Shown here piece by piece: positions 4,365-35,300 of a stretch of 38,350 nt of DNA. Made by a program: the position numbers and the translations under genes. Every line of letters starts with the position of its first letter. The stretch's first letter is position 1. Where the stretch lies: the IMG/VR virus record IMGVR_UViG_3300008261_000072, positions 1-38,350 of that record. One strand, given 5' to 3'. The notes beneath the pieces are model-generated. The model did not search any database and was not told the origin of the DNA. It saw only the letters and a program-made list of their open reading frames with translations. The DNA is from a virus.

Positions 4365-7300
4365 ATGGCAGTTGTAGGCGAGGCATCGATAATTGTTCGT
4401 GCCGTTACCACTGGTGTAAAAAATGATATCCAAAGATCATTTGATGGTACTGACAGAATAGGAGAGCGTGCTGGTGCAGATGCTGGCGCTGGTTTTAGTA
4501 GAGGGTTTCAAAGAGGAAGCGGTGATGTAGCTTCTTTATTTGGTAAATCTCTATCTCAAGCCGATGTTGATAGATTCACTGCAGCAAGAGAAAAGTTTTT
4601 ATCTTTAGCTAGAGCTGGTTATGTCCTTGCTGCTGCTTTAACTGGTCTTGGCGGAATTATTGGATCTGTAGTAGGAGGTTTAGGTGCTTTAGTTGCTATA
4701 GCAGCGGGAGCTACTCCTTCTTTACTAGCTTTATCTGGTGCATTTTTAGCAGTGGCAGCTTCCGCTGCAGTACTTAGAGCAGCATTTGGTGGAGTAACTG
4801 AGGCTATACAAGCTGGAGCAAAAGTTGGACAAAATGCTGCAGCTCAAGCTGCACAAATTAAAGCAGCTACAGATAGAGCAAATGATGCTTTATATAATTA
4901 CAATGAAACTTTAAGAAATAATGCTAAAAGAAAAGCAGAAGCTGTAGAAGCTGAATCCGATGCAGCTCAGGCGACTGCAGATGCTGCAATTGCTGTTGAA
5001 AGAGCTGAAAGAAGTTATAGAAATGCAGTTAAAGGTACTGAAAAAGCTCTAGAAGACGTCACAAAAGCTCGTGAAGATGCTAAAGAAGCAATTCAACAAC
5101 TTCGCTTCGAACTTGAAGGTGGGGTTATTTCGGAAAAGAAAGCACGCCTTGAGTTTGAAAAAGCTCGTGACTCTTTACAGCGTGTACAAGATCTTCCACC
5201 TAATTCCCGTGCTCGACGTGAGGCTGAGCTTGCATTTGCCGAAGCAGATCTTAATTTGCGTAAAGCAATTGACAAAAATAACGATCTTCGTAAAGCAAAT
5301 TCAAAAGCAAATCGTGAAGGCGTAGACGGAAATGAAAGAGTTATTGCTGCTCAAGAGCGTCTTGTACAAGCTCAGCAGACTGAAGCAGATTCTTTAATAG
5401 ACGCTGAAAGATCAGTAATCTCTTATAGAGAAGCTGTAGAAGAATTAACTGCCGCCAGAGAAAGATTAAAGAAAGGCGGAGAAATAGATAGGGAAAACGC
5501 TAGAGCATTAGAGTTAGCAGCTAGAGAACTTAAAGATGCTACAGCTGCATTAGAACAAGCACAAAAACCTTCAGGGATTGATGATTTTACAGCTGCTTTA
5601 GAAAAACTTTCTCCAGCTGCACAAGATTTTGTAAAATACATTCTTAGCCTCAAAGAAGCTTTTGAAGAGCTTCGTAAAAAACTTCAAGAAGCATTTTTTC
5701 CTAAATTCACAGAAGCAGTAAAACTTCTTGTAGAGACATATTTACCTCTTCTAGAAGAGGATCTCATAAGTATTGCTGCAAAACTTGGAGAGCTTTCTTT
5801 ATTATTTGCAGAAGCATTTACTACTCCTAAGAAGATAGAAGAAATTAAAACAATCTTCGAATCTTTTACCCCAATCATTGACGCCCTAGGTAAAGCACTC
5901 ATTGCTTTAGCATCTGCGTTTGTAACTCTTCAAGCAGCCTTTTCACCATACGCGATTGAGTTTGCTCAGTTTATTCAGAAAAAAGCAGAAGCTATTCAAA
6001 AAACTATAGAATTAGCGGAAGCAACAGGGGAACTTAATAAGATATTTAAAGACTCTACAGATATAGTCCGTGGGCTAGGAGAAGCTTTTGGAAATACTTT
6101 TGGAGCTTTAGGAACTATTATTTTAGCTGCTATCGGTCCTGGAAGTGCTGGAGAGTATTTTGTTACTTGGCTTAAAGAAGTTACTGCCAACTGGGAAGCA
6201 ACCACTAAATCTCTAAGCGAAAGTGGAGAACTTCAAACTTTCTTATTAGAGTTAACTAAAAACTTTACGCAACTCCTAGAGGTAATAGGGCAGATTGCTT
6301 TAGGTCTTATACAAATTGCAGCTTCCCCGGGATTTGGAGAGTTTTTAAAATCTCTAGAAGAAGCAGTTCTTATATTCAATGAAATTGGATTAGAGCTATC
6401 TAAAGAAGGTGGAGCTTTAGCTGCTCTAGGAGATCTTATAGTTGCTATTGCCAAGCTAACCGCATTAATTACCAACTCTGGCGCTATAGTCATATTCTTT
6501 AGAACTTTAACTGCAGTCATTGAAGGTTTAGTTTTTGTATTAGATACCCCATTCGGCAAAGCTCTTTTAACTATTACTGGCAGCTTACTTGCTCTTAGCG
6601 CAGCTATTGGAATAACCACTAAAGCTTTTAGTTTTTACGGAAATGCTGTCGGTGGAGCTCTGCTCAATATGAGTAAATTTATAGATATTGGTCTTCGTGG
6701 TATTGGTATTTGGTCTGGTCCAGCTGAAAAAGCAGTTAAAGCTCTAAGACAAGAATTAGTTTTCCTAACATATGGATTAGAGTTTGCAAATAAAAAATTC
6801 TTACTTGTTAGCGGAACAATAGCAGCTGTCATATTGGTAGTTGTGATGGCATATCAAGCGAGCGAAGACCTTAGAAAAGCAGTAGATAAACTGTGGAAAG
6901 TAGTTGGAAAAGAGCTTACTGAAGCATTTAAAGAAATTAAAAAAGCATTAGATGATGCTCTTGCACCTATTGGGGGAGTTTCTGGTGCATTTAAATTATT
7001 AGGTGATATTTTAGCTGTGACTATAGTTCCATTAATTGAAATAACTCTAGTTGCTGCTATAAATATTGTCAAAGGCATTATTTTAGGTTTTATAGATACT
7101 ATAGCAAGTTTAACTAGCAAGTTTGAAACTTTTAAAACTACAGTTACAACAATTTATAACAAAATAAAAGAGTTTTTTGAAAAAATAAATGAGCTAACTA
7201 TCGGAGATATTTTTGACGGATTAAAAACTGGTTTTAAAGGTGCAATAAATTATGTTATAGATAAGTGGAATGATCTTAAGTTTGAATTGAGATTACCAGA

Positions 7301-7634
7301 TGAAATATACGGTCTGCCGCTTCCTGGTTTCTTAGCAGGTAAAGGTTTTACAATTAAGACGCCAAATATTCCAAGACTTGCACGGGGTGGAATTGTTCCA
7401 GCTACTTCAGGTGGAATGCTTGCAATGATTGGTGAAGCTGGTCGTCCAGAGCGTGTAGAGCCTCTAGACTCAGACGGGCTATCTAATCGAGATAAAGCTA
7501 TGATTCAAATGCTTGCTGGAGAAGCAAGAGGAATTCAAATAATTGTTAATCCGTCAGCTGGTATGGACGAACGTGAGCTTGCAGCTTTAGTTTCTCGTCA
7601 ACTTGCTTTCCAACTTCGTAAAGGTGCTGCATAA
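4365..7634 (+). CDS. Tape measure protein
   Basis: At 1089 residues this is the largest gene in the tail block and lies between the chaperones and the distal tail protein, the invariant place of the tape measure. It sets tail length and is ejected ahead of the DNA. At the usual 0.15 nm per residue it predicts a tail of about 160 nm. Hydrophobic segments lie at about residues 83-145 and again within 530-900, with a long charged coiled coil at about 150-400 (many A, E, K, R). The C-terminal MIGEAGRPERVEPL segment is characteristic of the family. A strong AGGAGGTGA site precedes the ATG. Arginine codons switch to CGN in two patches, about 5065-5360 and 7380-7630, with AGA elsewhere. No peptidase or lytic domain was recognised. 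Confidence 0.9.
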   Translation: MAVVGEASIIVRAVTTGVKNDIQRSFDGTDRIGERAGADAGAGFSRGFQRGSGDVASLFGKSLSQADVDRFTAAREKFLSLARAGYVLAAALTGLGGIIGSVVGGLGALVAIAAGATPSLLALSGAFLAVAASAAVLRAAFGGVTEAIQAGAKVGQNAAAQAAQIKAATDRANDALYNYNETLRNNAKRKAEAVEAESDAAQATADAAIAVERAERSYRNAVKGTEKALEDVTKAREDAKEAIQQLRFELEGGVISEKKARLEFEKARDSLQRVQDLPPNSRARREAELAFAEADLNLRKAIDKNNDLRKANSKANREGVDGNERVIAAQERLVQAQQTEADSLIDAERSVISYREAVEELTAARERLKKGGEIDRENARALELAARELKDATAALEQAQKPSGIDDFTAALEKLSPAAQDFVKYILSLKEAFEELRKKLQEAFFPKFTEAVKLLVETYLPLLEEDLISIAAKLGELSLLFAEAFTTPKKIEEIKTIFESFTPIIDALGKALIALASAFVTLQAAFSPYAIEFAQFIQKKAEAIQKTIELAEATGELNKIFKDSTDIVRGLGEAFGNTFGALGTIILAAIGPGSAGEYFVTWLKEVTANWEATTKSLSESGELQTFLLELTKNFTQLLEVIGQIALGLIQIAASPGFGEFLKSLEEAVLIFNEIGLELSKEGGALAALGDLIVAIAKLTALITNSGAIVIFFRTLTAVIEGLVFVLDTPFGKALLTITGSLLALSAAIGITTKAFSFYGNAVGGALLNMSKFIDIGLRGIGIWSGPAEKAVKALRQELVFLTYGLEFANKKFLLVSGTIAAVILVVVMAYQASEDLRKAVDKLWKVVGKELTEAFKEIKKALDDALAPIGGVSGAFKLLGDILAVTIVPLIEITLVAAINIVKGIILGFIDTIASLTSKFETFKTTVTTIYNKIKEFFEKINELTIGDIFDGLKTGFKGAINYVIDKWNDLKFELRLPDEIYGLPLPGFLAGKGFTIKTPNIPRLARGGIVPATSGGMLAMIGEAGRPERVEPLDSDGLSNRDKAMIQMLAGEARGIQIIVNPSAGMDERELAALVSRQLAFQLRKGAA

Positions 7635-10222
7635 TGGCTGAAGTCTATAATCAAAGTCAAGAGGATAATTTTGTAGATAGATCTTTAATTCCTCTTCCCG
7701 AGCCGCATCTGACTGGTATGAAGCTCCAAGGAGATATTGCCTTGGGAGACTTTCTTTTCAACACTATAGATGAGTACGGGGTAATCTGGGTAATAACAGA
7801 TATTGAAGGTTGGTGGCAACATCCAGAACCAGAAATGCCAGATATTCCTCGTGGTTTTGGTGATGGTTCTTATGACATTAAAGGTAGATACCAAGCTCGT
7901 ATTCTCACTTTAAGCGGGGTATTTCTAACCCCAGACCCAAGTTTGGTAGAAGCAGCTAGAGATCGTTTTATTGCGGCGACAGATCTGGTTTATAAAGGAG
8001 CTTGGTTAAAAACAGGTCTTTCATCTGACAACAAGCGGTCATCTTTTGTTCGTCTTAGCGGAGCCCCACAAATAGCAACAACTACAGCAAGAGGTAGAAC
8101 AGAGTTTTCAGTTGGATTAAAAGCAGCAGATCCAATCAAATATGCTTGGAATGATTCCGATCCAGACGGGTATGAAGTAATAGAAATTCCAGCAACTAAT
8201 AGAGCAACATCTGCAACTGGGGTAGAGACTGTTACGAATATAGGAAATGCAACAGTTCCTATTGAACTAGAAATAAGAGGTCCTATAACTGGACCAGCTA
8301 GAGTGTATAACAGAACATCCGACAAACTTTTATATATTGTATCTGGTCTTCGAGGAAGACTTACCTCTTCTATTGTAAATAAGCAGATGGTTTTTGACGA
8401 AGAAACTTTAGAAGATGTAGCAACAATAACTACAAGAACAGCACATGGGCTTTTAGTTGGAGATATTGTAGAAATAACTGGTTTAGGTAGTCCACTAGAT
8501 GGAGATTTTGAGATATCTTCTGTACCTACTGAAACGACTTTTACTTTTCCAGTGTTTCCTAACGTATCTACATTAGCTGCAATTGTAACTAAAAAACTGC
8601 AAAATACCGTGGCAACTATAACAACAAAAGAACCCCACGGATTCACAAGCGGTAATTCTATTTTTATTAAAGATGTAGACGCTGTTTTCGATGGAACTTA
8701 TACAATAAACGGAACTCCTACTCCTACAAGCTTTACTTATACAAAAAATAGAATTCCTCCCCGCTCTGTGTCTGGAGCTATTCTTGTTTCAAATATAGCA
8801 ACTCTTACTACAACAGAAGCTCACCAATTTATAGTGGGAGAATCTGTAGCTATAGGCAATATAAACGTAAACTACAACGGAAACTTTGAAATTACTGGAA
8901 TTCCGAGCCCAACTACGTTTAGTTACGCAGTTACCAGAACAAATAACAAGCCAATAATTAATAGAGCTATGACATCTGATGTTGTAACGGTTACTGTTGG
9001 AACTGAGCACGGGTTTGTTGTAAATGAAAATGTTGTTATAACAGGAGTTAACTCTACTTTTGATGGTATATACACTATTGCTTCAACACCAAATTCAACA
9101 ACTTTTACATATAAGATCATAAGAGAGACTCAGAATAGAGTGCTAATTAGAGCTAGATTCTCTAACGTATCTACTTTAAGCACAGAACAACCGCATGGTT
9201 TCTTCTTAGGAGAAAGTGTCGCAGTTTTTGACGTAGGAAATAGCTATGATGGAACTTATCAAATAACTCAAGTTCCAAGCAATACTACATTTGCTTATTC
9301 CAATTCTGCATCAGATGAAACCGCTTTGGCCTTGTCTGTAGGTTCAGTAATTCCTGTTAAAAGATATGTATCTGCTAAACAAGTGATAGGTGGGGTTGCA
9401 ACACTGTTTACAGCTGGAGCTCATGGCTTTTTAATCGGAGAAACTGTAACGATTACAAACCTAGGTGCACCTTTTAATGGCTCATTTACAATTCTTTCTG
9501 TCCCAAGCACAAACTCATTTACCTACGCAGTAACTTCTCCAAATATATCTTATGGCGTAGGTGGGGCAGGTATCATCAATAGAAACAGAGCTGGAACTCT
9601 AGTAACTATCACAACGGACGGTGCACATCCTTTCACTACAGGTCAATATGTAATAATTTCTGGAATGGACTCTGCAGCTGCTATTCTTAATGGGACTTAT
9701 GTAATAAATGTTACTGGGTCTAACACATTTACTTATAATACAGTTTCTTCTGGCGTAGTTGAGGCTGCAGTAACTAGCTCTACTAATGTAACTGCTATTG
9801 GAGGATTTGCTCAGACATCAAGGTCAATTTCATCTACAGCGTCTAGTGGATCTGCAAGTGTAGGTGGAAGTCTTCCTTTTACAGCTGTAAATGGAACAGC
9901 TACCGTTTCTCCAGACATACTAGCTTCAGATGGTGGGGAGATAGAGTCTGCTGGTATAGCCGTTAAAAAAGCAAATATACCTTTTACTCCAGGAATAACT
10001 GGAGCAGCGGTTGACTTTGGCCCAGATATATTAGAAGTTAACACATTAACTAGAGATGTTGCTTTGAATGGTTCTTATGATGGAGCCAGATCTAAATTAG
10101 ATGTTTTAACAGACTTCTTTTTCTTAGAGCCAGGCAATAGTGAGATAGAGTTTGAGGATCAAAAGAACTCTACAAGTACAGCTCTATTAAAAATTTTTTA
10201 TAGATCTGGATGGTTAGGATAG
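7634..10222 (+). CDS. Distal tail protein (Dit-like) with seven inserted beta-repeats
   Basis: This protein (862 residues) should form the ring joining the tail tube to the tip. Residues 1-240 look like the Dit N-terminal and early second domain (GWWQHPEPEMPDIPRGFGDG near 59, then ADPIKYAW near 165). The closing part of that domain appears only at residues 797-862 (DILEVNTLTRDVALNG, GNSEIEF, IFYRSGW). Between them lie about 550 extra residues: seven copies of the HGF/NGTY repeat (residues 260-702) and a Ser/Thr-rich linker (about 703-760). Ordinary relatives run straight from one part to the other in about 300 residues. The ATG overlaps the tape measure stop (TAATG). The first 450 bp use CGT arginine codons and the repeat region uses AGA. 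Confidence 0.7.
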   Translation: MAEVYNQSQEDNFVDRSLIPLPEPHLTGMKLQGDIALGDFLFNTIDEYGVIWVITDIEGWWQHPEPEMPDIPRGFGDGSYDIKGRYQARILTLSGVFLTPDPSLVEAARDRFIAATDLVYKGAWLKTGLSSDNKRSSFVRLSGAPQIATTTARGRTEFSVGLKAADPIKYAWNDSDPDGYEVIEIPATNRATSATGVETVTNIGNATVPIELEIRGPITGPARVYNRTSDKLLYIVSGLRGRLTSSIVNKQMVFDEETLEDVATITTRTAHGLLVGDIVEITGLGSPLDGDFEISSVPTETTFTFPVFPNVSTLAAIVTKKLQNTVATITTKEPHGFTSGNSIFIKDVDAVFDGTYTINGTPTPTSFTYTKNRIPPRSVSGAILVSNIATLTTTEAHQFIVGESVAIGNINVNYNGNFEITGIPSPTTFSYAVTRTNNKPIINRAMTSDVVTVTVGTEHGFVVNENVVITGVNSTFDGIYTIASTPNSTTFTYKIIRETQNRVLIRARFSNVSTLSTEQPHGFFLGESVAVFDVGNSYDGTYQITQVPSNTTFAYSNSASDETALALSVGSVIPVKRYVSAKQVIGGVATLFTAGAHGFLIGETVTITNLGAPFNGSFTILSVPSTNSFTYAVTSPNISYGVGGAGIINRNRAGTLVTITTDGAHPFTTGQYVIISGMDSAAAILNGTYVINVTGSNTFTYNTVSSGVVEAAVTSSTNVTAIGGFAQTSRSISSTASSGSASVGGSLPFTAVNGTATVSPDILASDGGEIESAGIAVKKANIPFTPGITGAAVDFGPDILEVNTLTRDVALNGSYDGARSKLDVLTDFFFLEPGNSEIEFEDQKNSTSTALLKIFYRSGWLG
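8411..9739 (+). repeat. Array of seven beta-repeat domains in the distal tail protein
   Basis: The repeats cover residues about 260-305, 325-370, 387-432, 449-494, 511-555, 587-632 and 654-702. Each reads V-A-T-I-T-T, two or three residues, H-G-F, G-x-x-V-x-I-x-x, F-N/D-G-x-Y/F-x-I, P-x-x-T-x-F-x-Y. Linkers of 15-30 residues separate them. The core resembles phage domains that databases often label as FCCH-like after ubiquitin-activating enzyme E1. This is a fold label and does not imply ubiquitin chemistry. Confidence 0.8.
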
Positions 10223-10235
10223 GACTAACACTAAA

Positions 10236-12278
10236 ATGACAACGACATCTACAACCCTTACAGACGTATCCTATCGGTATTTTTTAACCGATCTTGTTAG
10301 CAATCAGGTGATTGCAGAAATCCCTTTTTCAGGAGTTTCTTATGAAAGAGCTATAAGAAAAGCAGGGTCTTTTTCTGGAACTATTGCAGCTATTGAAGCT
10401 ACAAAAAATTACAATCTTTATGAAGTAACTATGCCTGGCAGAACTGGGTTATATGTACTAAGAAATGGAGTTTGCGTATGGGGAGGGATGATTTGGTCTC
10501 GTTCATATAGCGAAAGCTCTAAACAACTTTCAGTAGATGCTTCTGAATTTACAAGCTATCTTTATCATAGAAATATCTGGCAAACTCTAATATATGGATC
10601 AGAGTTTATAGGTATTAGTTCTTTTTCTATAGCAAGCGGTGTTGCAACAGTTGTAACAGAAGAACCTCACGGTTTTCAAATAAACGACTTTGTAAAAATA
10701 ACTTTTACAAATCCTACTGTTAATGGTACTCATAAAGTAACTTCTGTAAGCTCTTCAAATCAATTCTCTTTTATAGTTTCTGCGGGAAATGTGGTAAGTA
10801 CTCCCATTACAAGTGGAGCTGTTAGAAAATTAGTAGATACTTATGATTTTGTAAGAGACTTAGTTGCCAGATTAAACAACGATTTAGGCGGAGTAAATTT
10901 TGCTAATGAAGTCATCGAACCTGGAGAGACTTTAGAACATTCCGTTATATCTTTGGAAAGAGAAAACGGAGAAGTTACAATAAAAACTCTAGAGGAACAC
11001 AGTCTTGTTCCGGGACAAGAATTTGAACTAATAGAAGTAAACCCAAACATAAACGGACTGCATACAGTAAAAGAAACTCCTGACTCTAAAACAGTTATAT
11101 TTGAATTATTTGGATCTAATATACCTCTTACAGCAGCTTCTGGAATAAGAACTTTATATGTTACTCAAAGATCTTTAACTAACAATGTTGCAACAATAAC
11201 AACTCATCTACCTCATGGTGGCCAAGTTGGTCAAAAAGTTTTTTTAAGCGGCATAGATTCTTTCTTTAGTGAAAGATTAGACATTCTTTTTGACGGAGAA
11301 GTAACTATAAAAACAGTTCCAACTCCTACAACATTTACATATGATAAAGCTAGCGTTTTAGATTATCCAATAGCTACAGTGTCTGGAGGCACAGCTACTC
11401 TTGGAAGTAGAATTAATTATGGAACTTATGGGCCATATACTGCCAATTCAGATATAGATATACAAGTAGGAACTAATAAGACAAGTGGCTTATATCAAGA
11501 CACTCAAATTATAAGAGGGTTTGAGCTTAAAACTTTTGGAGAAGTTTTAGAAGATTACTCTAATAATCTTAATGGATTTGAGTATAGAATTGATTGCGAT
11601 TATGACTTCAGCACAGCTTCTTTTACTAGAACATTTACTTTGCTTAATATAGAAAATCCTAATGAAATATCGGAAAGTGTTAGCTATACAGATGAAGAAA
11701 GACTAGGCTATAACGAAGTAGTTTTTGAGTATCCAGGAAGCATATCTACATTTACTATAGAAGAAAGTGCTGAAGACGCTGCTACTAGGTTTTTTGTAGA
11801 AGGAAACATCTCAGATCTTTCTGATGCAGCTAGCCAGCCTTATGCTGTTGCAGCTGATGAAACTCTTTTAAACAATCAAGAGGGAAGAAGCTGGCCTCTT
11901 CTGGATCAGGTGGAAGTCATACAAAATACTGGAGATGAAGATACTTTGTATTCTTACGCTCAAGAATATCTTTATGAATCAAAACCTCCTATCGGAGATA
12001 TAAAAATAACAGTAAATGGGTCCCTTACACCTATAGTAGGAAGCTATTTGCCAGGAGATTGGTGCTCTTTAATTATTGATGATCCATTTATGCTTGCAAG
12101 ATTAGCTGACGATCAAGAACCAAGAGATGACATTTTAGTAAGAAAAATACAATCTTACAAAGTTTCAGTACCAGATACGCCAGCTTTTCCAGAAACAGTG
12201 GACATCGATCTAATCACTGACTGGAAAGTTGACCAAGCTGGTAGAGCAGCAGGACTTCAACCTTCAGGAGGTAACTAA
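10236..12278 (+). CDS. Gp37-like minor tail / baseplate protein with three inserted repeats
   Basis: This protein (680 residues) resembles the siphovirus ReqiPepy6 Gp37-like family, placed at the tail tip next to Dit. The family-like N-terminus (RYFLTDLVSNQVIAEIPFSG, then GRTGLYVLRNGVCVWGGMIW near 68-87) and the C-terminal two fifths (QIIRGFELKTFGEVLEDYS near 424, PGDWCSLIIDDPF near 605, DIDLITDWKVD near 655) are intact. Repeats of the HGF type are inserted at residues about 135-181, 246-291 and 317-370, the last two more diverged. Relatives without these are nearer 400-500 residues. Arginine is mostly AGA. The start follows the Dit stop by 13 bp; the stop overlaps the next gene by 1 bp (TAATG). 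Confidence 0.65.
   Translation: MTTTSTTLTDVSYRYFLTDLVSNQVIAEIPFSGVSYERAIRKAGSFSGTIAAIEATKNYNLYEVTMPGRTGLYVLRNGVCVWGGMIWSRSYSESSKQLSVDASEFTSYLYHRNIWQTLIYGSEFIGISSFSIASGVATVVTEEPHGFQINDFVKITFTNPTVNGTHKVTSVSSSNQFSFIVSAGNVVSTPITSGAVRKLVDTYDFVRDLVARLNNDLGGVNFANEVIEPGETLEHSVISLERENGEVTIKTLEEHSLVPGQEFELIEVNPNINGLHTVKETPDSKTVIFELFGSNIPLTAASGIRTLYVTQRSLTNNVATITTHLPHGGQVGQKVFLSGIDSFFSERLDILFDGEVTIKTVPTPTTFTYDKASVLDYPIATVSGGTATLGSRINYGTYGPYTANSDIDIQVGTNKTSGLYQDTQIIRGFELKTFGEVLEDYSNNLNGFEYRIDCDYDFSTASFTRTFTLLNIENPNEISESVSYTDEERLGYNEVVFEYPGSISTFTIEESAEDAATRFFVEGNISDLSDAASQPYAVAADETLLNNQEGRSWPLLDQVEVIQNTGDEDTLYSYAQEYLYESKPPIGDIKITVNGSLTPIVGSYLPGDWCSLIIDDPFMLARLADDQEPRDDILVRKIQSYKVSVPDTPAFPETVDIDLITDWKVDQAGRAAGLQPSGGN
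10638..11345 (+). repeat. Three beta-repeat domains in the Gp37-like protein
   Basis: Copies lie at about 10638-10778 (VATVVTEEPHGF), 10971-11108 (a diverged copy with EVTIKTLEEHSL) and 11184-11345 (VATITTHLPHGG, with a short insertion before FDGEVTI). They separate two family-like halves of the host protein. Confidence 0.7.
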
Positions 12279-13960
12279 TGGCTACTCGTCGTAGGTCTGC
12301 AAGAAAAACTATAACTGGAAATCTTACTGATGTTCAAAGACGTCTTAGATTTTTAGAAACTAGACCATCTCCTTCTCGTTTAGCTTCTAAGGCAGTAGAC
12401 ACTCAAAACATAAAACCTTATGCCATTGCTACAGATTTAATTGCAACCTCTCAAATTACAACTAGAACTATTAACGACTCGGCTGTAACTACAGAAAAAA
12501 TAAATAATACTAGTGTTACTAATGAAAAATTAGCAGATAACTCTGTAAATGGGGCAAAAATAGCTGCAAACGCTGTTGCAACAGAAGAAATAGCAAATAA
12601 CGCTGTAACTACTCCTAAAATTGCTGACGGAAATGTAACTGATGCAAAAATAGCAAGCGTTTCTGCTGGAAAAGTTTCTGGAGTTCTCTCCACAAGCAAC
12701 ATTCCTTCTTTACCAGCTAGTCAAATAACATCTGGAACCTTGGATCTTGCAAGAATTCCTTCTCTTCCAGCTAGCCAAACCACAAGTGGAACGTTTGATC
12801 TTGGAAGAATTCCTTCTCTACCAGCCAGCCAAACTACTTCTGGAGTTTTTGATGTAGCAAGAATACCTTCTATAACAGCTGACAGAGTTCCATCACTTGA
12901 CGCATCAAAAATAACTACAGGAACTTTTAGCATAGATAGAATTCCTACAATTACAGAAACAAAACTAGGGACTGGTGCAGTTACAGAAACAAAACTAGGA
13001 TCGAACGCTGTAACAAGTGGAAAAATATTTCCTGGCGCTGTTGGATTTACTCAGCTAGCTGCTAATGGCATATTTAATCAAAATATTAGAGCTGGTGCAG
13101 TTTACGGTAGAGTTATAAGTAGAATAGGTGTCTCTGGAACTCTAAGTGTATTAAATGCCTCCATCGATTCAGGTGATATGGCAGCTGACTCTATTGGTTC
13201 TTTAGAATTACAAGACAATGCAGTTCAATCTGGAAATATACAAAACGGAGCTGTAATTGAGTCAAAAATAGGAACTGGTGCTTGTACTAATACAAAAATT
13301 GGTGCTGGCGCTATTACTGTTGGAAAAATTTCTTCAGGAACTCCGATATTAACTACAGCTGGTGGAACAAGTCCTATACAAGTATCTTTAGAAACAGCTA
13401 CAAACGGCACTAGAGCTGTTGTTTCAGTAAACGTTGGTACTGGATCTAATCAAGTAGCGGCTGGAAACCATACTCATTCAGGTGGAACTACAGTAGCTTC
13501 CCACACTCACCCCCTTCCAGGAACTTCCTATGTAATAGGACCTAGCGGACAACACAACGGGCACTCTACACCTGCAACAAACACTGGTTCTCACCAGCAC
13601 GGTCTTACTCTTACTGGAAATACTCTTTCTAATACTTCTACAATGAAAGCTAAGAAAGAAATTCAAGATCACGATTTTGACCCTAAAAAACTTTTAACTC
13701 TTAAGCTTAAAAAATATAAATACAAAAAAGAATATAGAACTCTTCAAGATAATTTAAATCGTGAGTGGATGTATGGATATATTGCAGAGGAAGTTCAAGA
13801 AGCTGGAATTGAAGAAATTCTTGGATATGATGAAAACGGTGATGTAGCTTCCCTGCAATATGGAACTCTTGTAACACTAGCTATTGAACTTCTCAAAATC
13901 CAGCAAAATGAGATAGACTCTCTTAAAGAAGAGATTCAGAGACTGAAGGAAAAGATATGA
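12278..13960 (+). CDS. Tail fibre with C-terminal S74 intramolecular chaperone
   Basis: This 560-residue fibre has a short basic N-terminus (ATRRRSARKTITG), then a shaft of short repeats with x-NAVTTxKIA-type units (about 40-140), an 18-residue tandem repeat region (about 142-225), a His-rich patch (HTHSGG, ASHTHPLPG, near 400-440) and a C-terminal peptidase S74 domain (about 454-560). S74 domains help fibres trimerise and then cut themselves off. The expected start motif S-x-x-x-x-K-x-x-I is present as STMKAKKEI with Ser454, and the EWMYGYIAEEVQEAG and final coiled-coil parts (ELLKIQQNEIDSLKEEI) follow. After cleavage the mature fibre would end near residue 453. It probably contacts the host. 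Overlaps at both ends (TAATG, ATGA) place it in the tail operon. Confidence 0.8.
   Translation: MATRRRSARKTITGNLTDVQRRLRFLETRPSPSRLASKAVDTQNIKPYAIATDLIATSQITTRTINDSAVTTEKINNTSVTNEKLADNSVNGAKIAANAVATEEIANNAVTTPKIADGNVTDAKIASVSAGKVSGVLSTSNIPSLPASQITSGTLDLARIPSLPASQTTSGTFDLGRIPSLPASQTTSGVFDVARIPSITADRVPSLDASKITTGTFSIDRIPTITETKLGTGAVTETKLGSNAVTSGKIFPGAVGFTQLAANGIFNQNIRAGAVYGRVISRIGVSGTLSVLNASIDSGDMAADSIGSLELQDNAVQSGNIQNGAVIESKIGTGACTNTKIGAGAITVGKISSGTPILTTAGGTSPIQVSLETATNGTRAVVSVNVGTGSNQVAAGNHTHSGGTTVASHTHPLPGTSYVIGPSGQHNGHSTPATNTGSHQHGLTLTGNTLSNTSTMKAKKEIQDHDFDPKKLLTLKLKKYKYKKEYRTLQDNLNREWMYGYIAEEVQEAGIEEILGYDENGDVASLQYGTLVTLAIELLKIQQNEIDSLKEEIQRLKEKI
12701..12862 (+). repeat. 54-bp tandem repeats in fibre shaft
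   Basis: Three consecutive 54-bp units at 12701, 12755 and 12809 encode 18-residue repeats of the form IPSLPASQTTSGTFDLGR. A degenerate fourth unit follows to about 12950. Copy number of such repeats can change by slippage and alter fibre length. Confidence 0.8.
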
Positions 13961-26328: not shown

Positions 26329-27399
26329 ATGAAAGTAGCTGTATACACAATCGCTCTTAACGAAAGACAGTTTGTTGAGAAATGGTTTGAATCTGCAAAA
26401 GATGCAGACTATTTAATGATTGCAGACACTGGATCAACTGATGGAACTATTGAACGAGCTAGAGAGCTGGGAATAGTTGTATACAGTATAAAAGTAACTC
26501 CATGGAGATTTGATGACGCAAGAAACGCTGCTCTTGCACTTCTTCCAGAAGACATCGATATGTGTGTTTCTCTAGACATGGACGAAGTCCTTGCTCCAAA
26601 TTGGAGAGAACCTTTAGAAGACCTTTGGAAACGTGGAGTAACTAGACCAAGATATAAGCATATTTGGTCTTGGAATGATGACGGATCGCCTGGATTAGAA
26701 TTTAGCTACGATCATATACATGCTAGAAAAGGTTATAGATGGAGACATCCTGTACACGAGTGTTTATATGTATATGGGATGGATGAAGTCCAAGAATGGA
26801 CAGATAAAATAGAAACTCATCACCATCCAGATCCAACCAAAAGCAGATCTCAATACCTTCCTCTTCTTTCTATGTCAGTAAAAGAAGATCCGTGGAACGA
26901 TAGAAATGCTTTTTACTATGGAAGAGAGTTGTATTTTTACGGAAAATACAGTGAAGCAGCCGTAGAACTGCAAAGACATTTAGATCTTCCTACAGCCCGC
27001 TGGGCACCAGAAAGAGCTGCATCAATGAGATTTATTGGAAAGTCTCTACCAGACGAAGCAGAAAAATGGTTTAGAAGAGCTGTACATGAAGCTCCTGGAA
27101 GAAGAGAGCCTTTTGTAGATTTAGCAAAACTCTACTATCAAAACCAAGAATGGGATAAATGTTTAGAGGCAGCTAAAGAAGCAATAGCTATAAAAGAAAA
27201 ACCTCTAGAGTATTTATGTGAGGCAGAAGCTTGGGGGTATGCTCCTTGGGACTATGCAGCTATAGCAGCTTTCAATTTAGGTCTTGTAGATGAATCTATT
27301 TTGTATGCTCAGGAAGCATATCGAATTGAACCTACCGATGAACGACTAAAGGAAAACCTAAAAGCTTGTTTAGCAGCTAAAAGTTTTAAACCTCAGTGA
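26329..27399 (+). CDS. Family 2 glycosyltransferase with TPR tail
   Basis: This protein (356 residues) has the GT-A fold at residues 1-180: VAVYTIALNERQFVEKW (3-19), IADTGSTDGT (31-40), a DMDEV metal motif near 86-90, and a WRHPVHECLY segment near 143. The C-terminal half has TPR-like helices (YSEAAVELQRHLDL, PDEAEKWFRRAVHEAPGRRE, EWDKCLEAAKEAI), which usually hold a protein partner or acceptor. It is the last plus-strand gene; its 3' end overlaps the 3' end of the convergent subtilase by 14 bp. A protein acceptor such as a fibre is plausible; the donor sugar is unknown. Confidence 0.85.
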   Translation: MKVAVYTIALNERQFVEKWFESAKDADYLMIADTGSTDGTIERARELGIVVYSIKVTPWRFDDARNAALALLPEDIDMCVSLDMDEVLAPNWREPLEDLWKRGVTRPRYKHIWSWNDDGSPGLEFSYDHIHARKGYRWRHPVHECLYVYGMDEVQEWTDKIETHHHPDPTKSRSQYLPLLSMSVKEDPWNDRNAFYYGRELYFYGKYSEAAVELQRHLDLPTARWAPERAASMRFIGKSLPDEAEKWFRRAVHEAPGRREPFVDLAKLYYQNQEWDKCLEAAKEAIAIKEKPLEYLCEAEAWGYAPWDYAAIAAFNLGLVDESILYAQEAYRIEPTDERLKENLKACLAAKSFKPQ

Positions 27400-28950
27400 A
27401 TGTGAAAGGTCTTTGACCTTTCATAGGCATATAACAAACTCTGTTATTTCCTCCATGTAAAGCTGTAGACACTGCATAGTCATTAGTTAAACCAGTGTCT
27501 CTCAGCTGTGCCTGAGACTTAGAAATCATCCACCTAACTACCTGAGATGGGGTCCAGTCTGGATGAGCTTGTAGAACTAATGCGGCTAGTCCAGCAACTT
27601 GCGGTGAAGCCATAGAAGTTCCTCCTAAAATGTCTTGTTTAAAATTTGAATTTTCGTTATATGGAAAACTAGTCGCACCATCGTTTGTTTCACTCATTGC
27701 ACTTAGAATTCTTGATCCAGCTGCATATAGTGTGATGGCTGGGCCAGAATTGCTAAAAGAAGACTTAGTATCTAAACCACCAAAAGTTCCAGAACCTAAA
27801 GAACCAACATCAAAACCAAAACTAGTTCCAACTGTTGGAGATCCTTTTCTATGATAATAGAAAGTACCAAAACCAGTTAAATTAATACTATTATCATAGT
27901 CTATTCCGCCTAAAATATCGGCTTTTACACTGTCATTTCCAGCAGCATTACATACAACCACTCCAGCTGCTATCAGCTGAGCAATGTCTGCATCTGTTGA
28001 AGACACTTTATAAGGGAATCCATAAACCCCATTACCATAAGAAGCTCCTGTATGTCCTTTAGCTGTATCTCTAACTGAACCAGTCCAAGGTGTTCCTCTA
28101 TATGTACCACCGTTTACTGCATAAGTAGTGCCACCACTAAAAGAGAAAGAAAAAGCATTATCGTTTGTTCTCCAAAAAATACTATAACCCCAACTGTTAT
28201 TTATTACAGTAGGTCTTGTATTATTTTTTGCTTGATGCCAACCTAGTAAAACATCAAAAGCTTGAGCTATAGATAATCCGTTTCCTGGATCTGGAGCTCC
28301 TTTTAGATCATTTAACTTTATAGCATAAATACGAGCATTTTTTGCCCATCCAAAAGTTTTGCCAGCTACAGTTCCAGCAACGTGAGTTCCATGTCCATCG
28401 TAATCTGTGTAAAAATTTGCTGGCATAGTACCTGGAACACCACTGGCAGCGAACCAATCTATTTGTTGAAGTCTGCTATTCCCCTGAGCATCTTGCCATT
28501 CTGGGTGATCTGCTTGTATCCCGCTATCTAAGATAACAACATCTACCCCAGTTCCATCTAAAACATAATCGTAAGTTCCGCCTGGATCTGCTGTAGAAGT
28601 ACCAAAAACATTAGTAGTATTTGTATGACGTAAAAGACCCCAGTTACCTTTTCCTAGCTCAGCGCCAGTAGTTTTACTAAAATTAGAATCTTGAAATGCA
28701 AATTTTGTTACTGGAACAGAAGATGGATCAAAAACATCTACTACTCTAGGATCATTTTTAAGAGCTTCAGCTTCCTCTTCAGTAAGTAGATAATTAGTGT
28801 TTAGTTGATTAATAGCTCTTTCATCGGAAACTTCTACAGATCTATTAGGTACAGTGTTAGATGAAGTATTGTCAGAAACTAAATCATCCCAAACAGAATC
28901 AGTGTCTTCTAAACTAGATGTCGTGACTATATATTCTTTAAAGTCACTCA

Positions 28951-28951
<1 letters not shown>
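27386..28951 (-). CDS. Subtilisin-like serine protease (S8) in fibre operon
   Basis: This protein (521 residues) has the complete catalytic set: Asp142 (VILDSGIQADH), His187 (DGHGTHVAG), oxyanion Asn339 (AAGND) and Ser446 (GGTSMASPQVAG). Residues 50-80 (LTEEEAEALKNDPRVVDVFD) resemble the end of an I9-type inhibitor/chaperone propeptide. There is no signal peptide, so it is made in the cytoplasm and either joins the virion or works during assembly. The ATG overlaps the stop of the collagen-like fibre gene (TAATG), so both are made together. It may cut host surface protein, process fibres, or act after lysis. A 60-residue Gly/Thr/Ser-rich insertion lies around 250-310. Arginine is mainly AGA. 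Confidence 0.9.
27403..27423. terminator. Hairpin at the convergent gene junction
   Basis: A perfect 9-bp inverted repeat (TGAAAGGTC 27403-27411, GACCTTTCA 27415-27423) with a 3-base loop lies just after the GT2 stop and inside the last codons of the subtilase. It lacks a T-run on either side, so it may stop or slow opposing transcripts without being a textbook terminator. Confidence 0.5.
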
Positions 28952-30828
<1,877 letters not shown>

Positions 30829-30844: not shown

Positions 30845-32350
30845 CTAGATTGCGCTTAGCGCCTTATGAATTATAGACCCTGTCATAACTGCATGTTTCT
30901 GACAAATGTATCTGTAACCTCCAGAAGCAGGTGTCATAGGGACATTCCAGTAAATTGTTCCAGATCCTTTAGCTTGAGCCTGTGCACCAACACTTACTTC
31001 TCCACTTACACTTATATGGGTTATTCCTGTTTCTATATTAACAAAACCAGACCCTGTGTCTTCTTGAATAAGAAATGGATGAGCTAACAAGCCTTGTAGT
31101 TTAAAAGCAATAGTGGTTCCACCTAAAACATAAACTGAAGGGTTATCACCAGAATAATGACTGCTTACTAAATAAGCACTAGCTCCATTATTAGTTACTT
31201 GAAGTTGTGCAATAGCTGGTTTAACTACATCTACAGTAACTCCAGCGCTTACAGCGTCGGTTAAATCGTTAAATTGAGTACTAGATTGTGGTCCAGTAGG
31301 TCCAGTAGGTCCTTCAGGTCCAGTAGGTCCTGTTACAGTACTAGCTGCACCAGTTGCACCTGTAGGTCCAGTATCTCCTGTTGCGCCAGTAGCTCCCGTT
31401 GGTCCTGTAGGGCCAGGAATAGTAGAAGGAGCACCTGTAGATCCTGTTGGACCTGTAGGACCAGCAATATTTCCTACATCATTCCAAGAAGTTCCGTCCC
31501 AGACATAAACTTTATTACTTTCTCCAGTAACAAAATAAGCGTGACCTACAGTTGCACCAGTTGGTAGTAGTCCTATAGTTGCAACACTTCCTTGAACTTG
31601 AAGAGTTGTTCCTTGTGGACCAGTTGCTCCAACTGGGCCAGGACCACCGCCAGGTCCAGTAGGACCTGTAGGTCCTTCAACTCCACCAATTCCAGCAGGA
31701 CCAGTTGCTCCCGTAGGTCCTGTTGCACCAGTTGGTCCAGTAGGACCTCCAGAAGGTCCAGTTGGACCTGTAACACCTTGCGGGCCTGTTGGTCCTGTAG
31801 ATCCTGTAGTTGGAGTAGCTCCAGTTCCAACAGTTTCCCAGCCATTTTCTGTTTTTACTTCAAGTGCGCCAAAACCATCATTTATTTCTGTATTAAATCT
31901 TACATAACCTACCTCTGCAGATCCTCGACGCTCTGCAGTAGTTCCTTTATCTAAATAAAGAGTATTGTTTAATCCTCTAATTTCTTTATTAGTAAAAGTT
32001 TGAACTATGTTTTCAATTAAACCTAGTTCTTCTTGGACCATACCGTTTAATGTGAAAGAAACTGTATTTGTATTAGATCTTACATATAAAGAATCTCCAT
32101 CACTAACAGCAAATCTAAATGTCTCAAAAGAAGAACCTATTGGAAGAACTAGATTAAAAGCAATATAACCGTACTGGGTAGTTAGTACAGCATTAGATGG
32201 GACAATCCAAATACTTACTCTAGTTATTGGATTTGCAGTTACAGCTCTATTTGCGGCAACTACTGACACTAAATGTGCAGAGTTAAAGGTCGTTAAACTA
32301 GTGTCGGTGTTAGCCGCAGGATTAGAGATTGCAAGTCGTTGTATCGCCAT
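30845..32350 (-). CDS. Collagen-like fibre with C-terminal cupredoxin-like domain
   Basis: This fibre (501 residues) has an N-terminal attachment domain (1-105) paralogous to that of the 625-residue fibre, a linker ([20 protein letters not shown]), collagen repeats at about 183-247 and 297-355, and one bead module (248-297, [15 protein letters not shown]). The C-terminal domain (about 380-498) looks like a plastocyanin-type cupredoxin: [20 protein letters not shown] with His424, and [16 protein letters not shown] with Cys483, His486 and Met489. These four residues match type 1 copper ligands, although Met is two residues nearer to His than in plastocyanin. AGGAGA precedes the start. The domain would sit at the tip of the fibre. 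Confidence 0.8.
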
Positions 32351-32359
32351 TGTAATCTC

Positions 32360-35300
32360 CTATGCCTGAGCTTCAGCCCATGACATCTTTGCAGCTGTTA
32401 ATGTATTAGATCCAGTTAACCTAGACACTGCAATTGTTAAAATGTCTGGTCCATCTGGGAAGATAGAGTCTCCACCAAGAATAGAGTTAGACAACTCAAA
32501 CAATGTGCTAAGAGGAACTGTAGTTGTAGATTCTGTACCACCAGATCCACCAGACGCTCTAAAGTTGTAAACCTGAACTCCACCAGAAACAGTATCTTGA
32601 GCTGTGTGCTCAACTACTTGGGTAAGTGATGGAGAATCTACTGGGGCAAAGTTTAAGTTGTTTAGACGTGGATTCAAAAGAATCTTGACATCTACCAACT
32701 GATTAGTAGAAACAGAAACTTCTTGCAATCTAAGTTGCATTCGGTTAATAACGTCTCTATCTCCTAGCTTTCCAGTCAAACCTTCAGATACTGAAGGAGA
32801 TAGACGTAGTGAGAGAAGAGGTTGGTAGTTAGGTCCAGAAGTATTATTTAATGATCCATCTGGATATAAGAAGTATGTATACTGAACGTTTCCTTGGGTT
32901 GTAAAGTTTAGAACTTCAGCTATAGCAATAGTTGTAGAAGCAATTGCAGTAACTGTTTGAGTTCCACTAACGTTAAATGTAAAACTAGTTGGGCTTGTTA
33001 CAGACACTGGACCAACATAATCTGGAATATTGGCTACACCAGATGCATAAACACCGACGTTATTATTTCCAGTGTTAGGTATGTTGTGGTTATTTGTAGT
33101 AGTTACAGTAACTGTGCTGCCAGATCTAGCAACAGTGATGGCTTGAGTGGCTCCCAAGCTAATAGTTGCAGTGAGAGGAGTTAAATGTATTAGGTTTGCA
33201 GAGTTAACAAAAGCTCTATACTTAACATTATTTGTTAAGTTTGCAAAAGAGTTAGATCCAATAACTTGAGTTGCTGGATTTAAAGTATTTACTCCTGGAA
33301 GACCGTTTGTTGCTACAGAAGTAAACTGTAGTATGTCTCCAGTTGCAAAACCGTGACTCTGAACCGTAAACAAATCTGTTGATAAATTGATACCGCCAGA
33401 TGCGAATGACTTTGCTGTTGTTCCAGGAACACCGAGAGTCTGGCTACCTGCAGTAAAGAGGTAAGCATTATCGTCATCAAAACGACCATCCATCATAACC
33501 GAAGTACCCCAGTGGAAGAGGTATGGAATGTATGTAGGGTTTAGATTAGTGACAACTTCATATCTAGCTGGCAAGTTACCAGAACGGAAATATGACTCGA
33601 ATAAATTATTGTTGTGGACAAATTCGTGAACATATTGAACTTGACCTTCTACCGTCTTAAATCCAAAGCGGATCTTTCCAGCTCCGTACCATGAGTAGTC
33701 TATGTAGCTCATCTGGATACGGCTAAGGTCAAGGTTATATCCTGTAGGTCCAGAACCATCGCAGACATCTAGAGACCAGCTGGATTGAGGAATTTTTGTA
33801 TCAACTGTCTTAGTTACGATAATACCTGACTTAGCAGGAGTAAACGAGTGGATAGTAGTAGTTCCTGTCGTAGATAAATCAACGACGCTAACAGAGTCTG
33901 GAGATGCTTTTAGTTTAAAGGAGTTGTTATCTATAAGATCTACATAGTATGTACGACCATTGATAAGACCACCGATAACTTCACCATCAATAGAGTTATA
34001 TACAACTGGAAGTAGGTTACTAAATCCGTGTCCAATGATTGCAAATACGTTTGTTGTAGTATTTACTACAGCTTGAGGATTAAACTCTTTTTCTGTTCCA
34101 GAAGCTCCTTTATACTCTGGTCTAACAGACATTCTTGTGTCAGATTCAATTTCAGTAATTCTATAGCTTTGACCTCTCATAACTACAAAATCACCTACAT
34201 CTAGCTGAGCTTGGAAGCTAGTATTTGTTCCAAATATAAGTTCGCTACCCTGAAGAGCAGCTACGGTTCCAGCAATCTGCTGAGTTGAAGAACGACGAAC
34301 ACAGTAGATATCTGTTCCATCAAACTCGAAGAACATACCGTTCTGGAAATCGAACATACCAGAACGTACAGCTCCGTTAGTCCATTCACGAACATAGAAT
34401 TGAGGGAATCCAAATGCTCTAGTTTCTGGAATAGGTTGCCCAGCTGGGAATCTAAAGGTTGTTAAATCTACTACTGTTACTTGGAAATCTCCATTATAGA
34501 CTGTGCTTACGTTTCCAAATGAATCTAAAGCCTGAGCAATTCTCACAAACAGACCTGACACCAAACCATGAGGTCTGCGTGTCTTAGCTTCTATAGTTGT
34601 AGTTGAGAACTTAGTTAAGCTTTCAATATCGATAGATGGTTGGAAGTTAATACCGCAAGAAGTCTGTAGACCCTTACCTGACTGGTAACGGAAGTACTTA
34701 CGAGTCTGACGGATAATCTGTCCATACGATGTTTTTGCACCGACAGACATTTCTACACCACCGTCGAATGGACGGTGTAGAGAATACCCTTGAGGGCGTA
34801 CATATACGAATGTTGGGTATGAATATGAAATACCGTTGTATGCAGAAGCATAAGGACGGTCTACAGTAATCTGGGTATCAGAACCGATAGCAGCAATTCT
34901 TCGAATAATTGGTCCTACTGGAACTGTTCTTGTTAATGTAAATAAAGATCCAGTTCCTTGAGTACTGAAATCTACAGCATTAGTATTGTTTGTTGCATCT
35001 GCGGCAGAATTGTGCAAAGTAATTTCTGTACCAGATACAGCTCTTACAAAGTAGTAGTAGCCATCTACAAGTGGGCTAGGAGCCACTCCACCGCCAGCAG
35101 AGAATTTAACAGAATCCCCAGTGCTATATGTATGAGCTTTTGTTACTCTATTGGTTATAACATTTACATCACCTGAAGCAAAAGTTATAGAGTTTGTAGT
35201 GTTCGGTGGGAAAATACGGAATCTATCTCCTACCTTAAGAATCTTTGAAAATGCAGTACCTGTTCCATTTACAAGAACAGATCCAGATGCAATGCTGATA

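Follow-up and report, generated by a model that had tools for sequence, protein, structure and literature searches.

How can a distal tail protein (Dit) carry seven repeats within a single turn of one of its domains and still close that domain? The question is raised by an open reading frame at positions 7634–10222 (+ strand, 862 aa) of the window, which is a whole virus record of 38,350 bases and a single metagenomic contig. The frame lies directly after the tape measure gene (4365–7634) and before the protein in hub position, as in the usual gene order around a Dit. It matches PF22768 and phrog_5577 (minor tail protein), and the structures closest in fold to its predicted model are those of Dits. 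The Dits of SPP1, Douge, monocin, TP901-1, 80alpha and p2 align from residues 28–32 to residues 861–862 (Z 14–18), showing a belt domain followed by a galectin-like C-terminal domain. A search of the Dit sequence against solved structures gave no relevant match. As in evolved Dits, one loop of the galectin domain has received a large insertion. The frame thus encodes an evolved Dit, the galectin-like (C-terminal) domain of which is interrupted by seven beads and a 92-residue return segment.

The first-pass annotation had proposed that a seven-fold expansion splits the second Dit domain, and the comparison with relatives bears this out. PF22768, the SPP1_Dit C-terminal domain, covers only profile positions 42–97 in the window Dit (aa 798–860), whereas in a relative with no bead (L090, 59% identical in the N-terminal part) positions 2–97 are matched without a break. 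In a second zero-bead relative (L103) the SPP1_Dit domain is likewise unbroken by Pfam. At the insertion site L090 reads ...LMLIIDSIPAGSFLEIDT..., where the window Dit has LLYIVSGLRG, the insert, and then GPDILEVNT. The same clean boundary is seen between L103 and two relatives with one bead (L095 and L137), the cores of which are near-identical. The gene can be divided accordingly, all on the + strand. The belt domain and the first part of the galectin-like domain (aa 1–238, 7634–8347) are conserved with the zero-bead relatives and match the SPP1 Dit fold from residue 31. The whole insert (aa ~239–797, 8348–10024) is replaced by 2–5 aa in the zero-bead relatives, namely L090, L103 and a further 16 unique sequences. 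The closing strands (aa 798–862 and the stop codon, 10025–10222) contain the PF22768 and fold matches. The interval first assigned to the expansion, 8411–9739, does hold the bead array (aa 260–702), but the insert is better placed at aa ~239–797, as the return segment (aa 706–797) falls outside that interval.

A full-length AlphaFold2 model, calculated with 37 relatives in the alignment, had a mean pLDDT of 87 and a pTM of only 0.54, which does not fix the overall course of the arm. SPP1 Dit aligned with this model at a Z-score of 17.9 and 3.3 Å over 235 residues spanning 31 to 861; therefore both flanks (31–250 and ~798–861) form one Dit in the model. The prediction that residues 1–250 and ~797–862 fold together was borne out in this way, using the full-length model and the zero- and one-bead relatives. 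The C-terminal domain and the bead of a one-bead relative (L031) were also modeled confidently by AlphaFold2 (pLDDT mostly 80–93), and the best PDB matches of this model are Dits (SPP1, monocin tip, 80alpha, TP901-1, p2 and Douge).

An HMM built from single-bead relatives only matched all seven beads of the window Dit with E-values from 2e-8 to 4e-19 (27.7–62.2 bits), compared with a best score of 5.9 bits among 200 shuffled copies. The bead cores lie at aa 262–309 (8417–8560), 326–374 (8609–8755), 388–437 (8795–8944), 450–497 (8981–9124), 512–559 (9167–9310), 588–636 (9395–9541) and 656–705 (9599–9748), all on the + strand. The motif is about 50 residues long and recurs within aa 260–702 with a period of about 62 aa. 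Where BLAST aligned them, pairs of beads are 30–52% identical; beads 6 and 7 are one pair without an alignment. Positional orthology of the beads is clear in comparison with a close relative (L018), largely clear for bead 3 and blurred elsewhere. No tandem repeat of matching period was found in the DNA of the gene, and the bead copies are therefore old.

PF16190 (E1_FCCH) matched the window Dit with 32.8 bits for the whole protein (cut-off 29.5) in a single stretch at aa 655–704, which is bead 7; the other beads alone stay below the cut-off. Structural alignment of predicted models assigns the FCCH barrel fold to the beads: the bead of L031 superimposes on the E1 FCCH domain with 2.2–2.6 Å over 75–78 residues, and on the endosialidase barrel with 1.9 Å over 77 residues. 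PF12195 (endosialidase beta-barrel) gave no match on the window Dit up to E = 1, though the fold matches, and the bead profile found only weak E1 matches (E ~0.08) and unrelated ones among solved structures. In E1 ubiquitin-activating enzymes the FCCH domain (PF16190) is present, unlike the beads, in one copy and in a eukaryotic enzyme, and a functional relation is not implied. The tailspike barrel of the K1F/NF and phi92 endosialidases has the same fold as the bead and is a polysialic-acid-binding adhesion module in K1F (PMC12632334); it differs from the beads as a single copy inside an enzyme, and the sequence similarity is weak.

The bead is found at other sites of the virion proteins. One copy (1187–1324, +; 64.9 bits) lies towards the C-terminus of the major tail protein (ORF 644–1519, phrog_792), where it would decorate the tail tube. 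Three further copies (10641–11354, +; 33.8, 15.6 and 46.0 bits) are located in the next tail protein, in hub/Tal position (ORF 10236–12278, phrog_1885 minor tail protein). Given its presence in both proteins, the bead is a general tail decoration module and the Dit one site of a wider scheme. The array had also been regarded as a potential extra fibre layer made without a separate fibre gene. This part of the proposal does not hold as worded, since the ORF at 12278–13960 (+), two genes downstream, encodes a separate tail-fibre-like protein (phrog_892 tail fiber protein) with an S74 chaperone match (PF13884) just above the cut-off. A giant ORF of 1940 aa on the opposite strand (32360–38182, −) has weak matches to E1_FCCH, ALK/LTK glycine-rich and endosialidase beta-barrel families, all below cut-off, and may perhaps encode a second adhesion protein of related barrels. 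Two collagen-repeat proteins (28951–30828 and 30845–32350, both −) adjoin a subtilase-family protease (27386–28951, −), and the gene at 26329–27399 (+) matches phrog_13126, a beta-1,4-glycosyltransferase, over its whole length.

What might the beads do? The window Dit gave no match to CBM families in Pfam; the bead fold is common to the glycan-binding endosialidase barrel. In K1F this barrel holds one of three polysialic-acid sites and is a hotspot of host discrimination (PMC12632334), and Dit inserts of phages of lactic acid bacteria bind host glycans (PMC7291167). Because of these two precedents, and because the bead decorates several tail proteins, glycan contact appears to be the likeliest role of the beads, with the proviso that a shared fold is no proof of a shared function. 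By analogy, the arm probably helps to grip the sugar coat of the host. Alternatively, the arm could have no binding partner and act passively, as a spacer that positions the tail tip or a shield that protects it. A bead number held at 6–7 over a whole clade would suit a set length, and the binding role is only a predicted one; yet the matching barrel and the known Dit inserts do bind glycans, and the bead also sits on tail tube and hub proteins, so that we regard a purely passive arm as rather unlikely.

Dit inserts as such are already known. In the evolved Dits of phages of Gram-positive hosts (Lactobacillus phage J-1, the lactococcal 936 group and S. thermophilus phages) large modules occupy a loop of the peripheral galectin domain (PMC7291167, PMC9437275) and project from the ring, as in the window Dit. 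Those proteins hold a single carbohydrate-binding module or a pair of them, flanked by linkers, whereas the group of the window Dit has six to eight FCCH-type barrels and an apparent laced return. Foldseek ranked the Dit of mycobacteriophage Bxb1 (gp23, PDB-entry 9d93; E 2e-12), an actinophage Dit with extra domains (PMC13252515), first among the matches of the full model. Its record aligns with D29 gp27 only at residues 9–265 and 614–685, which means that this Dit is also interrupted ahead of its final ~70 residues. Unlike the window Dit, Bxb1 gp23 has been described with three extra CTE-like domains, and Pfam detects no FCCH in it. The Dits of Oenococcus phage OE33PA and mycobacteriophage Corndog are likewise multi-domain proteins with extra domains (PMC8540738, PMC13252515). 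In the literature searched, coverage of which was incomplete so that absence is weak evidence, we found no description of FCCH-type bead arrays in a Dit or of a laced return, and no paper on FCCH-type domains in phage tails.

The beads are followed by the return segment (aa 706–797, 9749–10024, +), 92 residues rich in Ser, Gly and Ala. In the full-length model it is predicted to form one strand after another, and the pLDDT averages 73–94 per block. Barrel alignments to the model end within this segment: at residue 795 for bead 1 (SelB, aIF2-gamma), 780 for bead 2 (UBA6, UBA1), 759 for bead 3 (endosialidase NF), 744 for bead 4 (EF-Tu) and 725 for bead 7. For beads 1–4 these end points run in antiparallel order. 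Locally they are one strand short, and the barrel match is reached only with return residues; the ~75 residues aligned for beads 2 and 3 are the expectation if ~13 residues of the return are added to a repeat of 62. Consistent with this, array beads mostly match the first ~65 of 80 positions of the single-bead domain by the bead HMM, the last ~15 being mostly missing. In the model, it is apparently the return segment that holds the missing strands. This lacing was deduced from where structural alignments on a predicted model begin and end. For beads 5–7 the model gives an extra local strand, and it does not resolve a laced pairing of beads 5 and 6.

The length of the insert bears on the same point. 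Among 104 unique complete relatives the median insert measures 2, 79, 474, 558 and 646 aa for 0, 1, 6, 7 and 8 beads. A fit to 102 of them gave a slope of 80.06 aa for each bead, with an intercept of 0.24 and r = 0.9998, a rule dominated by one evolutionary event that the two length groups reflect. The slope equals the single-bead insert of 79 aa. In our reading, each bead still costs 80 residues, the last strand having been moved into the return segment. We therefore lean towards a laced repeat rod, in which the array sits at a single turn, several barrels (at least beads 1–4) are one strand short and are completed by one back-running segment, and both arm ends meet at the same point of the ring subunit. 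It could also be that the Dit is split as described but the beads are self-contained on a string, the return segment being a flexible linker that gives no strands. Its composition would fit a linker, tandem beads elsewhere in phage proteins show no obvious return, and beads 5–7 have their extra strand. We nevertheless consider this unlikely, since the model predicts ordered strands in that segment, the alignments of beads 1–4 need return residues, and each bead is paid for with 80 aa.

Taking the laced rod as the preferred reading, we propose the following architecture. An arm of seven FCCH-type barrels has taken the place of the tight turn that joins two strands in the galectin-like domain. 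The chain is predicted to leave the ring at aa ~239, to run through the barrels and to come back via aa 706–797. In beads 1–4 some five strands would come from the local repeat and the last one from the return segment, and both arm ends would rejoin at the same turn. Dit hexamers are known from homologues, and a hexamer of this protein would bear six arms around the tail tip. To judge from the homologues, the barrels may bind glycans or contact the surface and so increase avidity or reach during adsorption, and the arm would act together with the separate fibre and with the beads of the tail tube and hub proteins. An evolved Dit with a laced arm of seven FCCH-type β-barrels in place of the galectin-domain turn, six arms per hexamer and such a role in adsorption is, taken as a whole, likely in our view. 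The predicted lacing would answer how a turn of few residues can accommodate a long array without a stranded far end. It would also mean that copy number could change only if two segments far apart in the chain grew in step.

The earlier suggestion to look for copy-number variation among relatives proved fruitful. In the 104 sequences the same turn holds 0, 1, 6, 7 or 8 beads and never 2–5, which matched growth, if the rod is laced, could help explain. The rule of 80 residues per bead is testable, and natural 0-, 1-, 6-, 7- and 8-bead versions are available for comparison. Within the 6–8-bead group the return segment lengthens by only ~6 aa per bead, and in an 8-bead relative (L054) it is no longer than in the 7-bead ones. 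Both of the last two beads of L054 resemble bead 7 of L053, its 7-bead sister, most closely, and the eighth bead thus seems to stem from a terminal duplication. In a tree of the Dit cores (quick method, SH-aLRT support only) all 6–8-bead Dits form one clade (98*). The change from few to many beads occurred once, and the four bead-number states need at least 12 changes overall; therefore the zero/one state toggles several times. Zero- and one-bead inserts are nearly constant in length (2–5 or ~79–86 aa), as if cassettes were exchanged. An origin of the array in misassembly, or in low complexity arising by chance, is rejected as virtually impossible: only one metagenomic contig makes up the window, and composition is biased in the segment that follows the beads, but the same open architecture occurs in dozens of independent contigs, the bead copies have diverged at the DNA level, and shuffled copies score at most 5.9 bits.

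The host is probably a freshwater actinobacterium, because a relative, DSL-LC01, is predicted to infect Actinomycetia (PMC10611076) and the other database matches are mainly Microbacterium and Arthrobacter phages. A search of bacterial genomes for relatives found none. A repeat-array type of arm is added to the known evolved Dits, in widespread, uncultured and probably actinobacterial freshwater phages.

A long N-terminal extension is present in 35 of 55 few-bead Dits and in none of the 49 many-bead ones; in the sampled cases (L083 and L103, with one or no bead) it is a CBM_4_9 domain, which also counts in favour of a glycan-related role of the Dit periphery. The many-bead group is a single clade, so this confinement to few-bead Dits is suggestive only. 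In two relatives (L078, L085) the turn holds one bead, and another two are located at the N-terminal end of the Dit. The Microbacterium phages Cece (L045) and Pumpernickel (L047) have one bead in the turn, followed by FCCH-like repeats of ~36 aa after the Dit domain.
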